The notes under the pieces were generated by a model that was not told the origin of the DNA, did no database searches, and worked only from the letters and a program-made list of their open reading frames with translations. This document shows, piece by piece, positions 17,820-26,826 of a stretch of DNA of 64,000 nt. Numbering within the stretch: position 1 is the first letter of the stretch; every line of letters starts with the position of its first letter. Position numbers and translations under genes: made by a program. Source of the stretch: Thermoplasmata archaeon (GTDB lineage Archaea > Thermoplasmatota > Thermoplasmata > Methanomassiliicoccales > Methanomethylophilaceae). The stretch covers positions 124,001 to 188,000 of the forward strand of contig SUTB01000001.1 in the NCBI GenBank assembly GCA_015063125.1, read 5' to 3'.

Positions 17820-19559
17820 TCACTCCATTACTGGAGGCTCAACCCCTTCAGGGGTATCGACGAGCTTGACTCCTCTGTTCTGGTATTTCTTGATGAAGAG
17901 CAGTATGACGACCATGGTCACGATTCCGATGACGGTGACGATGGGGCTCTGCCAGAATCCAGCGATGAGGAAGAACACGAAGGATACTCCTGCGACCAGC
18001 AGTGCGTAGTAGACCTGGGTACCGACGTGGTTCAGGTGACTACACTGGGCTCCGGCCGACGACATGATGGTGGTGTCGGAAATGGGCGAGCAGTGGTCTC
18101 CGAAGACGGCTCCGGACAAGCAGGCACTGATTCCAACAATCATGAGGGTGGGGTCGTGGATGAACACCGCGTACACTATGGGAAGCAGGATACCGAAGGT
18201 TCCCCATGAGGTTCCGGTGGAGAACGCGATGAAACAGGCCAGCAGCATGAAGACTGCGGGCAGGAAGTTCATCAGGGCCTCAGCACCCTCTCCGACAAGG
18301 GAGTCGACGAACTCGGGCGCTCCGAGTCCGTATCTGGTAAGGCTGCAGATACACCATGCGAAGATTAGGATGGAGATCGCAGGGACCATGTTACGGAATC
18401 CGCGGGGGATGCACTCCATGGTCTGATCGAACGAGACCGTCCTCCTGCAGAGCACGTAAATGACTGTGAGGATCAGCGCGATGAGTGAACCGTATGCGAG
18501 AGCGGAGGATGCAGACGCGTCTCCGAAGGCTCCGAAGATGTCCATGTAGTAGTCCGAGCTGGGGTCGAAGAATCCGCCGGACCAGATGAGCATGATGATG
18601 CTCGCAGGGACCAGGAACAGGAAGATGGGAATGATGAGGTCTGCGACCCTTCCCTTGGGGTTGCCCTCTTCCACTTTCTCATTCTCGTAGGGTCTCTCCT
18701 CGGTTGTGAAGAGGTCACCCTTCTCTCTAGCGTTGGTCTCATGGACTTTCATCGGACCGAAGTCCAGGTCGATGAGGGCAATCGTGATGACCATCACGAT
18801 GGTGAACAGTGCGTAGAAGTTGTACTGGATTGATTCGATGAAGAGTCCGAATCCATCGGTTCCGTCCGGAAGATAGGAAGAAACCGCAGCCGCCCAAGAA
18901 CTGATGGGCGCGATGATACAGATGGGGGCAGCCATCGAGTCGATGAGGTATGCGAGCTTTGCACGGGAGATCTGGAATTTATCAGATACCGATCTCATGA
19001 CTTGACCGACTGTCAGACAGTTGAAGTAATCGTCCACGAAGATCAGGATTCCGAGGAAAGCGGTCATGAGCTGTGCTCCCTTGCGGCTCTTGATGTGGGA
19101 CAGGGCCCACTCTCCGTATGCGCGGCTTCCTCCGCTGATCAGCAGGAGGCATCCGATGATACCGAGGGCCACCAGGAAGAACAGGATTCCAGTATCGAGC
19201 GATCCCAGGAATCCCCAGGTGTCGTCGATGATCTCGATCTCCTCTCCAGTCACTGCATCGATGACAGTGTGTGAGGTGCTTCCATCCATGATGGAGATAA
19301 GCGTTGCTTCGAAGTTTCCGTCGCCGACGAATATTGCTGCCAGCACTATTCCGACGAACAGCGATGTATACACATCTTTCGTAGCCAATGCCAAGACGAT
19401 GGCGACAATTGGAGGCACGAGAGCCCAGAACGTTCCGTAGAACCTGTTCCCTCCCTCAATGGCCGGTGTTGTAACGAACGCTACCACAGCGATCGCTGCA
19501 ACGAGCAGGCTTATCACCAGCAGAAGCAATGGCTTGTGCTTTGTATTTGTCAAACTCAT
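17820..19559 (-). CDS. Na+/H+ antiporter, NhaC family
   Basis: A 579-residue membrane protein of the NhaC family with about 12-13 hydrophobic segments. Diagnostic stretches are ILIFVDDYFNCLTVGQVMRSVSD near residue 165 (in part), containing the paired Asp in a membrane helix, and ACLSGAVFGDHCSPISDTTIMSSAGAQ (in part) near residue 490. Both are hallmarks of the family. It likely exchanges Na+ for H+ or a metabolite, as NhaC relatives include malate/lactate exchangers. The ATG at 19559 is preferred over the one at 19565 because AGGTGA is then well spaced. Upstream lie a TATA-like ATTATAAAC and three 21-bp repeats. Confidence 0.92.
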   Translation of the reverse strand: MSLTNTKHKPLLLLVISLLVAAIAVVAFVTTPAIEGGNRFYGTFWALVPPIVAIVLALATKDVYTSLFVGIVLAAIFVGDGNFEATLISIMDGSTSHTVIDAVTGEEIEIIDDTWGFLGSLDTGILFFLVALGIIGCLLLISGGSRAYGEWALSHIKSRKGAQLMTAFLGILIFVDDYFNCLTVGQVMRSVSDKFQISRAKLAYLIDSMAAPICIIAPISSWAAAVSSYLPDGTDGFGLFIESIQYNFYALFTIVMVITIALIDLDFGPMKVHETNAREKGDLFTTEERPYENEKVEEGNPKGRVADLIIPIFLFLVPASIIMLIWSGGFFDPSSDYYMDIFGAFGDASASSALAYGSLIALILTVIYVLCRRTVSFDQTMECIPRGFRNMVPAISILIFAWCICSLTRYGLGAPEFVDSLVGEGAEALMNFLPAVFMLLACFIAFSTGTSWGTFGILLPIVYAVFIHDPTLMIVGISACLSGAVFGDHCSPISDTTIMSSAGAQCSHLNHVGTQVYYALLVAGVSFVFFLIAGFWQSPIVTVIGIVTMVVILLFIKKYQNRGVKLVDTPEGVEPPVME

Positions 19560-19615
19560 AGGCATTCACCTATAACGATTCGCGGATTCCTTTTTTGTTT
19601 ATAATGATAAAGGAC

Positions 19616-19678
19616 AATTATTCGAAATACGATAGTAATTATTCGAAAATCGGAATATATTATACGAAAAACTTCGAT
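19616..19678. repeat. three 21-bp direct repeats upstream of antiporter promoter
   Basis: Three tandem units of exactly 21 bp start at 19616, 19637 and 19658. The first 12 bases are AATTATTCGAAA, AATTATTCGAAA and TATTATACGAAA, and each unit also carries a second CGAT/TCGG-like element. The 21-bp period places each copy on the same face of the helix. They sit upstream of the antiporter TATA element, so they are best read as a cooperative regulator binding site. They are too few and too short for CRISPR. Confidence 0.7.
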
Positions 19679-19766
19679 AAAACCACGCATTCGGTCTGAA
19701 TGACATAACGGCGTATCGTATGTATTGGCAGCATTATCCATTGTGATGACTTCTAGAAGAAAAAGA

Positions 19767-19784
19767 CCGCACCCGAAGGTGCGG
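19767..19784 (-). terminator. hairpin downstream of thrS
   Basis: CCGCACC-CGAA-GGTGCGG lies 12 bases past the thrS stop. On the minus strand it is followed by TCTTTTTCTT, a strong terminator shape. Confidence 0.75.
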
Positions 19785-19795
19785 AATTAGTTTGA

Positions 19796-21550
19796 TCAAG
19801 CCCTGTCGGCGATCTCTTTCTGGAGGTCGGCGATGAAGTCATCGAGCTTGACGGTACCCTGGTCTCCTCCGTCCCTCTTCCTGACGGTGACTATGGTTCC
19901 GTCCTGGACCTCGTTCTCTCCGAGGACCAGCATGTAGGGGACCTTCTGGAGCTGAGCCTCACGGATCTTGTATCCGATCTTCTCGCCTCTGTTGTCCAGC
20001 TTTACCCTGATTCCGGCAGCCTTCAGCTTGGCAGCCACCTGCTCGGCATAGTCGAAGGACTTCTCGGAGACCGAGAGGACCCTGACCTGAACGGGTGCGA
20101 GCCAGGTGGGGAACTTTCCTCCGTAGTGCTCGATGAGGATTCCCATGAACCTGTCGATGGATCCGTAGATGACACGGTGGATCATGATGGGCCTGTGCTT
20201 CTCTCCGTCGGCTCCGATGTAGTTGATGTCGAACCTCTGGGGCAGCTGGAAGTCCAGCTGGATGGTTCCGCACTGCCAGGTCCTTCCGAGGGAGTCCTCG
20301 ACGTGGAAGTCGATCTTGGGTCCGTAGAACGCTCCGTCACCCTCGTGGATGGCGTACTCGCGTCCAAGCGAGTCCAGTGCCTTCTTGAGACCGTTGGTCG
20401 CCATCTCCCACTCCTCATCGGTTCCCATGGAGTTCTCGGGCCTGGTGGAGAGTTCGATGTGGTAGTTGAATCCGAATTTGGAATAGACCTCATCGACGAG
20501 CCTGACGACTCCTGCGATCTCGTCAGGGATCTGCTCGGGGGTCATGAAGATGTGTGCATCATCCTGGGTGAAGCATCTTACCCTGAACAGACCGTGGAGG
20601 GTTCCGGACCTCTCGTGCCTGTGCACGGTTCCGAGCTCTCCGAGCCTCAGGGGTAGCTCCTTGTAGGAGTGGTTCTCGTTCTTGTAGACGAGGATGCCTC
20701 CGGGGCAGTTCATCGGCTTGATGCAGTGGATCGCGTCATCGATGACAGTGGTGTACATGTTCTCCTTGTAGTGATCCCAGTGACCGGACCTCAGCCAAAG
20801 CTGCTGGTCCAGGATGAGCGGGGTGGAGATCTCGTAGTAGTTCTCGCGGGTGTGGAGCTCCCTCCAGTATTCGATGAGGGTGTTTCTGAGGACCATTCCC
20901 TTGGGGAGGTAGAACGGGAATCCCTGTCCCTCCTCCATGATGGTGAAGAGACCGAGCTCCTTTCCGAGCTTCCTGTGGTCTCTCTTCTTGGCCTCCTCGA
21001 GCATGGTGAGGTACTTGTCCAGCGCCTCCTTGGAATCCCATGCGGTACCGTAGATACGGGAGAGCATCTTGTTGTTCTCGTCGCCTCTCCAGTAGGCACC
21101 GGCTATGGATGTGAGCTTGAACGCTTTGACCGCTTTCGTGTATAGAGCGTGGGGTCCTGCACAGAGATCTACGAACTCGCCCTGCTTGTAGAAGCTGATG
21201 CTAGCATCCTGGGGTAGCTCGACCACGAGCTGGACCTTGTAGATCTCGCCTTTGGATTTCAGATAATCGATGGCTTCCTGCCTCGACATTGTGTATGTCT
21301 CGAGTTTCAGGTTCTCCTTTACGATCTTCTTCATCTCGGCCTCGATCTTCTCGAGGTCCTCGGGGACGAAACCGCCCTCCTTGTCGAAATCGTAGTAGAA
21401 TCCGTCTTCGATCGCAGGTCCAATCGCCAATTTGGTCCCGGGGTACAGCCTCTGCACCGCCTGGGCCATCACGTGGGCAGCCGTGTGCCTTATGACCTTC
21501 AGGTCATCTTCGCACTCGTTGACGCTGCCGTCGTTGTACAAAGCCTTCAT
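19796..21550 (-). CDS. thrS: threonyl-tRNA synthetase, bacterial type lacking the TGS domain
   Basis: A 584-residue class II synthetase that attaches Thr to tRNA-Thr. The bacterial-type N2 editing domain is present (RHTAAHVMAQAVQ with HxxxH near residue 22, and CAGPH near 135). It is followed by catalytic motif 2 (HRHERSGTLHGLFRVRCFTQDD in part), the zinc-binding MNCPGG Cys, and a C-terminal anticodon domain ending in QKEIADRA. The usual bacterial N-terminal TGS domain of about 60 residues is absent, and the archaeal-specific editing domain is absent too. The ATG at 21550 is preferred; a GTG at 21559 is in frame. The gene looks transferred from bacteria. Confidence 0.96.
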   Translation of the reverse strand: MKALYNDGSVNECEDDLKVIRHTAAHVMAQAVQRLYPGTKLAIGPAIEDGFYYDFDKEGGFVPEDLEKIEAEMKKIVKENLKLETYTMSRQEAIDYLKSKGEIYKVQLVVELPQDASISFYKQGEFVDLCAGPHALYTKAVKAFKLTSIAGAYWRGDENNKMLSRIYGTAWDSKEALDKYLTMLEEAKKRDHRKLGKELGLFTIMEEGQGFPFYLPKGMVLRNTLIEYWRELHTRENYYEISTPLILDQQLWLRSGHWDHYKENMYTTVIDDAIHCIKPMNCPGGILVYKNENHSYKELPLRLGELGTVHRHERSGTLHGLFRVRCFTQDDAHIFMTPEQIPDEIAGVVRLVDEVYSKFGFNYHIELSTRPENSMGTDEEWEMATNGLKKALDSLGREYAIHEGDGAFYGPKIDFHVEDSLGRTWQCGTIQLDFQLPQRFDINYIGADGEKHRPIMIHRVIYGSIDRFMGILIEHYGGKFPTWLAPVQVRVLSVSEKSFDYAEQVAAKLKAAGIRVKLDNRGEKIGYKIREAQLQKVPYMLVLGENEVQDGTIVTVRKRDGGDQGTVKLDDFIADLQKEIADRA

Positions 21551-21671
21551 TTCAATCACTATCGACCCGTCGACATACCTCGCCGGCTGGGATTTAATTT
21601 TGTAAGGGGTGGGTATGTTTCATTGTTTTTATATGTTGTTGGCGGGAGCGCCAGTATTGTGGAAGGTAGAA

Positions 21672-25758: not shown

Positions 25759-26826
25759 ATGGATGAGATGATAATGATCATGACAGCGGTGGTGATCATC
25801 GCTGTGGTGCTCGTAATATCGAGCGGAATCAAGATCGTCAGGCCCTACGAACAAGCCATCTATATGAGGCTCGGAAAGTTCGTCAGGGTTCTGAACCAGG
25901 GACTGAATGTGGTATTCCCGCTTATCAACGAGGTCGTCAAGATGGATCTCCGTACCGAGGTCCTGGACGTTCCCAAGCAGGAAGTCATCACGAAGGACAA
26001 CTCCCCCGTGGAGGTAGATGCGGTCATTTACATCAAGGTGACCGATCCCAAGAACGCATATTTCGAGGTCTCCAACTACAGATTCGCAACCGTCAATCTG
26101 GCACAGACTACCCTGAGGTCCATCATCGGAGACATGGAGCTCGATGAGATCCTGTCCTCGAGAGAGAAGATCAACGTCAGCCTCAGAGACATCCTCGATG
26201 AGAACACCGACAAGTGGGGGGTCAAGATCGAGGCCGTCGAGATCAGGGAAGTCAACCCCGCCAGGAAGGTCAAGGACTCCATGGAGGAGCAGACCTCGGC
26301 GGAGAGGAAGAGGCGTGCAGCCATCCTCGAGGCGGACGGACAGAAGAGGGCGGCCATCCTGGAAGCCGAGGGAAAGAAGAGGTCCCGTATCCTCGAGGCA
26401 GAGGGTCTGAGGCAGTCCATGATCCTCGAGGCAGAGGGAAAGAGGCTGGCAACCATCCTGGAGGGACAGGGAGAGGCCCAGAAGCTGAGGATCCTCTCAG
26501 TCGGAGCCGCGACCATGGATTCCAAGGCCATGTCCGTGCTTTCCATGCAGACCCTTCAGAAGGTCGGAGAGGGAGAGTCCTCGAAGATATTCTTCCCCAT
26601 GGAAGTCACCAAGCTGGTCGAGGGCGTATCCGAATACCTGGGCACCGCCAAGAACGTTCCTGACAGGGAAGTCTCTGATGTGGATTCCATCCGCAAGGCG
26701 GTCGGGGATCCCGACGATGTGCTCGGACCCATCCCGTCGATGGAGGATATCGCTGCAGAATCTTCAAAGGCCAGTGCCGAAGCCGCCAAGATGGAGGACG
26801 ATGTCCTCCCTGACGACAAAATCTGA
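25759..26826 (+). CDS. SPFH domain protein (stomatin/slipin type)
   Basis: A 355-residue membrane-anchored scaffold protein. A single N-terminal hydrophobic segment (residues 5-24) is followed by the SPFH domain: KIVRPYEQAIYMRLGKFVR near 30, VITKDNSPVEVDAVIY near 75, and WGVKIEAVEIREVNPARKV near 155. A long helical region then has repeated A-I-L-E-A-(D/E)-G blocks (residues 185-235), the expected coiled coil. The C-terminal 50 residues are acidic. GAGGTG precedes the ATG. With NfeD upstream it likely organises membrane patches and controls protease access. Confidence 0.95.
   Translation: MDEMIMIMTAVVIIAVVLVISSGIKIVRPYEQAIYMRLGKFVRVLNQGLNVVFPLINEVVKMDLRTEVLDVPKQEVITKDNSPVEVDAVIYIKVTDPKNAYFEVSNYRFATVNLAQTTLRSIIGDMELDEILSSREKINVSLRDILDENTDKWGVKIEAVEIREVNPARKVKDSMEEQTSAERKRRAAILEADGQKRAAILEAEGKKRSRILEAEGLRQSMILEAEGKRLATILEGQGEAQKLRILSVGAATMDSKAMSVLSMQTLQKVGEGESSKIFFPMEVTKLVEGVSEYLGTAKNVPDREVSDVDSIRKAVGDPDDVLGPIPSMEDIAAESSKASAEAAKMEDDVLPDDKI

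Follow-up and report, generated by a model that had tools for sequence, protein, structure and literature searches.

Archaeal Lrp dimers are described as recognising imperfect palindromes of 13–17 bp with AT-rich centres, which occur in clusters two or three helical turns apart; for Ptr2, LysM and Ss-LrpB, the same account places the activating dimer site just upstream of the BRE (PMC2995911). The promoter of the Ss-LrpB gene of Sulfolobus solfataricus contains three such sites with a 15-bp palindromic consensus, to which three dimers bind cooperatively; autoregulation and DNA wrapping are reported, and porDAB and permeases are among the targets that it activates (PMC4046817). The MsvR box of methanogens, given as TTCGTAN4TACGAA, is an inverted repeat of CGAA half-sites located upstream of TATA (PMC3729527). 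Among the open-licence PubMed Central papers listed, we found no prior description of Lrp control in the archaeal order studied here.

The window (the whole 64-kb stretch of DNA that was analysed) contains three repeat units whose starts and 21-bp separation are exactly those given in the preliminary description. Units 1 and 2 have AATTATTCGAAA in common, unit 3 is TATTATACGAAA and agrees with it at 10 of 12 positions, and on the gene (minus) strand the repeat core reads TTTCGWATAAT. The array is placed between the end of thrS and the TATA-like element of an NhaC-family gene, both genes being on the minus strand, and it is because of this orientation that the array lies upstream of the antiporter gene, as had been proposed. 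The features of the locus are as follows.

17820..19565, minus strand: NhaC-family transporter gene, the presumed target (Pfam PF03553, 7.6e-44)
19598..19605, minus strand: predicted TATA-like element ATTATAAA, a consensus match only
19616, 19637 and 19658: starts of the three repeat units, period exactly 21 bp, read from the sequence
19620..19634, minus strand: predicted promoter-proximal operator, centre 19627, gene-strand 17-mer CTATCGTATTTCGAATA, left half-site degenerate
19641..19655, minus strand: predicted middle operator, centre 19648, ATTCCGATTTTCGAATA
19662..19676, minus strand: predicted distal operator, centre 19669, TCGAAGTTTTTCGTATA
19759..19784, minus strand: terminator-like hairpin with a trailing T run, just beyond the end of thrS, identified by reading the sequence
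19796..21559, minus strand: thrS, the upstream neighbour (TIGR00418, 4.2e-220)

The hairpin and T run after thrS suggest that the antiporter gene has a promoter of its own, and the centre of the TATA-like element is 26 bp downstream of the centre of the proximal operator. The product of 17820–19565 is also matched by the NCBIfam Tet(35), NhaC and ArcD models, in all cases below their cut-offs.

The three 21-bp-spaced repeats are genuine and do not arise by chance. The motif TTATWCGAA is confined to the three array positions when both strands of the window are searched, and a comparable triple repeat (three 10-mer copies with at most one mismatch between any two and a constant period of 12–60) was found in none of 400 versions of the intergenic region shuffled by dinucleotides. 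The same scan of the rest of the window gave a single other case, at 26389 with a period of 33. Tandem Repeats Finder reports at 26308–26472 a 33-bp tandem repeat of five copies with 71% matches; its period is divisible by three, and it is probably an 11-residue protein repeat. At a score of at least 30, the array itself is absent from the output of that program, presumably because its copies diverge outside the conserved 10–12 bases. The preliminary description had advised looking for the same iterons elsewhere in the genome. A second pair of units at 21-bp spacing with up to three mismatches was found nowhere beyond the array in the 1.65-Mb genome; related operators do occur, including a triplet at the lrp promoter.

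Each repeat is the better-kept half, together with its flank, of a palindrome of 15 bp that is degenerate here, CTACGAAWWTCGTAG. From 74 near-perfect sites in congeners, a set free of this species and of all antiporter promoters, we built a symmetric matrix and ran it on 13 antiporter promoters. The three best sites of the promoter studied here are centred at -104, -83 and -62 with scores of 8.5, 10.5 and 3.2, respectively. Only the middle site, which differs from TACGAWWWTCGTA by two mismatches, passes p 0.05 (p(max) 0.047 against 300 shuffles), and its counterpart in the same-species genome has a p of 0.067; the distal site has a p(max) of 0.127, and the proximal site (0.73) is not significant alone and is counted as an operator because it is exactly 21 bp from the next. 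As the sites are individually weak, the operator claim rests on their spacing. The triplet score at period 21, 22.3, is the best in the window at any period of 15–60; apart from triplets overlapping the array, the runner-up at period 21 reaches 4.1, and other periods give 6.8 at best. None of 5000 shuffles reached 22.3 at period 21, and one of 5000 did so at any period of 15–60. In this genome, the 13-bp operator with up to two mismatches has 74 matches per strand compared to 53 for the control, an excess so small that the array can be neither found nor judged by single sites.

The promoters of orthologous antiporter genes hold TACGAnnnTCGTA-like palindromes. A match to the antiporter gene is present in 14 of the 31 genus genomes; one of the 14 homologues (L007) is without upstream sequence, leaving 13 assessable promoters, and 12 of these have a site scoring at least 10, as does the homologue L018. 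The 12 include this species and its same-species genome, and L005 was judged through its matching contig L019. No operator was found by the matrix in the promoter of the homologue L008. Counting weak partners, the operators are spaced 21/21 bp here, 20/22 in L002, 41 in L003, 42 in L004, 20 in L006, 50 in L099 and L100, 31 in L101, 30/21 in L009 and 21 in L010 and L019. The result that would have refuted the preliminary description, a lack of conservation of the 21-bp period upstream of orthologous antiporter genes, was not obtained: the sites are 20–22, 30–31, 41–42 or 50 bp apart, at whole helical turns, although not always at 21 bp. The antiporter homologue of genome G046 (L101) has one in-frame TGA and may for that reason be a pseudogene or contain a sequencing error. 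The gene gave no match in 16 genomes drawn from the order's other families. Among the best 80 of 578 homologue loci in named genomes, nearly all are titled as Clostridia-type or other gut bacteria (46–55% identity), and L018 and L019, which are titled Methanomethylophilaceae, show 59–60% identity; L018–L020 were the loci examined more closely. The patchy occurrence in the genus and the closeness to clostridial homologues suggest that the antiporter gene was acquired horizontally.

The operator extends well beyond the antiporter. With up to one mismatch, CTACGAAWWTCGTAG is present in 30 of the 31 genus genomes, with 188 matches in total against seven for a reversed-pattern control (both strands, palindromes counted twice). 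A broader sample of 120 genomes from the order gave matches in 25 of 26 genomes of the genus (control 7 of 26), in 40 of 49 from other genera of the family (control 8 of 49) and in 13 of 45 from other families, where the control (12 of 45) places them at background. We conclude from these counts that the operator, as defined by the CTACGAAWWTCGTAG pattern, belongs to the family Methanomethylophilaceae. Since many matches fall within open frames, they cannot all be promoter sites; in genome G005 (L239, 1485–1530), two near-perfect operators 31 bp apart are located within a predicted 917-residue open frame. Among the matches listed, most of which were read together with their adjacent genes, 68 loci have a candidate downstream gene, and 47 of these match one of 12 representative proteins, which were named by Pfam and NCBIfam models. 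The counts, in which one locus is counted twice and same-species copies are included, form a partial target list:

Hsp70: 12
malic enzyme: 6
AMP-forming acyl-CoA synthetase: 5
PaaK-type CoA ligase: 4
thioredoxin-reductase-like protein: 4
PAS protein: 4
antiporter: 4
AgcS symporter: 3
acetate-CoA ligase alpha subunit: 2
HTH_3 gene: 2
aspartate dehydrogenase: 1
Lrp: 1

In the genome studied here, near-perfect sites precede the Hsp70, PaaK-type and HTH_3 genes, and one-mismatch sites are located by agcS, a MATE gene and others.

Pairs in which one site scores at least 15 and its partner at least 7 occur at 20–21, 31–33, 41–42, 48, 50–53, 59–65 and 71 bp (55 pairs, at 46 of 95 loci; the set leaves out L188–L190, which are from the same species, and L206, which is the same promoter as L125). 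The phase statistic peaks at 0.669 for 10.2 bp, a value reached by none of 5000 uniform draws under a null that ignores shared ancestry; using each distinct distance once, it is 0.56 at 10.2 bp, related promoters not being independent. By these distances, paired sites throughout the predicted regulon are separated by whole helical turns.

The most likely regulator of the array is the only Lrp/AsnC protein of the genome, as judged by sequence. PF01037 is matched by one protein in this genome (gene L103) and is present in all 31 genus genomes. The candidate has an AsnC-type HTH and a ligand-binding domain, and its best NCBIfam match is LysM (NF040947) at 121.6 bits, whereas the equivalog model requires more than 180 bits. 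Directly beside the lrp gene is a dapA-like gene, which was named by reading the sequence rather than by a model match. The lrp promoter of this genome holds three sites at exactly 21 bp with a triplet score of 17.8, reached by none of 300 shuffles, the next best period being 24 with a score of -2.9. These sites are degenerate, with a TTACGGATT core. The 21-bp triplet is also found at the lrp promoters of G042 (same species), G003, G009, G012 and G007; G013, G024 and G022 from the same clade have no clear 21-bp triplet there, and in the second clade of the genus most lrp promoters lack one too. In G003, one nearly perfect site is located 68 bp upstream of the start. A site scoring at least 10 is present in 26 of 30 promoters of lrp orthologues compared to none of 16 paralogue promoters, and in two of 694 overlapping tiles of the window, both of which contain the array. 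The promoter counts leave out L120, which has almost no upstream sequence, and the lrp gene of G017, and they carry a small circularity, one of the 74 training sites (L206) being the G003 lrp promoter, itself among the 26. In the second clade, many of the scores of at least 10 come from a GC-richer TCTGCGGAATCCGCAGA-type palindrome and not from the exact operator. This palindrome is conserved about 110–155 bp upstream in second-clade lrp promoters (for example, L122, L257, L262 and L264) and may be an operator variant or something different.

We therefore propose, with a probability of roughly 75%, that the array is a triplet of degenerate CTACGAAWWTCGTAG operators with a spacing of two turns, which lie immediately before the core promoter of the NhaC-family gene and are bound by the LysM-like Lrp. 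At the level of sequence, this proposal is supported by the array, its match to the family-wide operator, the helical phasing, the conservation at orthologous promoters and the similar triplet at lrp.

It is conceivable, although we think it unlikely, that genuine operators are recognised by another transcription factor, one that controls lrp as well. Any regulator conserved in the family would fit the distribution of the operator, and in this species a near-perfect site lies 38 bp before the HTH_3 gene; against this, the geometry of the sites, their spacing and the triplet at the lrp promoter fit Lrp. The HTH_3 protein was rejected as the regulator, as only two of 30 promoters of its gene (28 nearer-orthologue loci and two paralogue loci) have a site, both from this species. 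The HTH_3 gene adjoins a hisA-like gene, and its near-perfect operator is seen only in this species (L165 near 1500; L272/L273).

The preliminary description had favoured a regulator responsive to Na+ or pH acting on antiporter-specific iterons, a reading for which the NhaC-family gene behind the array and the two-turn spacing could be cited. We now give it very little credence: congeners have the same operator before metabolic, chaperone and redox genes (CoA-ligase, malic-enzyme, amino-acid-symporter, Hsp70 and other genes) and before lrp, and the models that the transporter matches below cut-off include an arginine/ornithine antiporter. Still less credence is due to a chance likeness of AT-rich promoter DNA or to an RNA element in the leader. 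The weak scores of the individual sites would fit chance, but none of the 400 and none of the 5000 shuffles reproduced the arrangement, the sites recur in orthologues, and the array lies upstream of the TATA-like element. An RNA leader element was also rejected in an Rfam search, which gave no match at E up to 1 in 19000–20300. A replication origin or plasmid-type iterons, also raised at the outset on the strength of three direct repeats in AT-rich DNA, has a negligible probability, since there are only three copies, the sites are conserved at the promoters of orthologous genes and occur at ordinary promoters, of the two Cdc6 genes found, one (C1:41329) is on a different contig and the other (C4:322023) some 178 kb away from the array (C4:143616), and the GC-skew check for an origin gave a 4-kb profile without a sign switch at the array.

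Cooperative binding of a regulator, as originally suggested, is supported: the best reading of the array is that it is bound in this way at sites sharing one helical face. On that face, three dimers of Lrp (or a higher oligomer) would cooperate and probably wrap the DNA of the array, and the dimer nearest TATA would help or hinder the recruitment of TBP/TFB, depending on amino-acid supply. The binding of Lrp to the array and its cooperativity are inferred, and the signal would be an amino acid, possibly lysine. In nine of 11 antiporter promoters, a TATA-like 8-mer that ranks first, alone or tied, is centred 26–28 bp from the nearest operator centre (four of the nine are tied, and L009 is also weak); L006 and L018 gave no clear TATA-like call. 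This placement suggests activation, which is our first choice over repression by analogy with Ptr2, LysM and Ss-LrpB, for which an activating dimer site just upstream of the BRE is reported. The third site of the lrp promoter is nearer to TATA (about 16–18 bp) and would suit autorepression, and at five malic-enzyme loci the operator is 23–26 bp before the predicted start codon, which would suit repression. Lrp is likely to be a dual regulator.

A broader picture, to which we assign a little less than an even chance, is that across Methanomethylophilaceae one LysM-like Lrp runs a feast/famine regulon that links lysine synthesis with CoA ligases, malic enzyme, an Hsp70 and Na+-coupled transport, acting through one palindrome placed at intervals of whole helical turns. 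The patchy, clostridial-like antiporter gene would then have come under native control in this species as a triplet of weak sites evolved in place of a single strong one. If the proposal of an Lrp triplet is right, a family with members from the rumen gains a defined operator, a candidate regulator and a set of candidate targets, and the natural series of operator arrays with differing helical spacings could inform how archaeal Lrp proteins activate or repress.

Compared with archaeal Lrp operators in general, the array has palindromes of the expected length (13–17 bp) with AT-rich centres, the third site being weak, and the expected cluster spacing (21/21 bp here, phased pairs throughout the regulon); a like site is present at the regulator's own promoter, which is usual but not universal for Lrp proteins, and the genome encodes an Lrp/AsnC protein. 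LysM of Sulfolobus acts on lysWXJK and is the best NCBIfam match of our candidate, whose gene adjoins a dapA-like gene; the candidate falls below the LysM equivalog cut-off. The Ptr2 site of Methanocaldococcus jannaschii is GGACGATTTTCGTCC and shares a ACGATTTTCGT core with the operator described here; the Ptr2 targets fdxA, rb2 and rbr are unlike those listed above, and the candidate Lrp may not be its orthologue. MsvR boxes are similar in that their CGAA half-sites are inverted and stand before TATA within an AT-rich stretch, but they differ in geometry; MsvR was rejected as the regulator on this ground and because this genome gave no match to V4R (PF02830) at E 0.001. The closest match in architecture and spacing, going by the published description, is the three-site operator of Ss-LrpB, from which our predicted operator differs in consensus (TTGCAAAATTTGCAA compared to CTACGAAWWTCGTAG) and in lineage. 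The novelty lies in the sequence of the operator, in its occurrence throughout the family and in the list of targets; the architecture is of the known archaeal Lrp kind.
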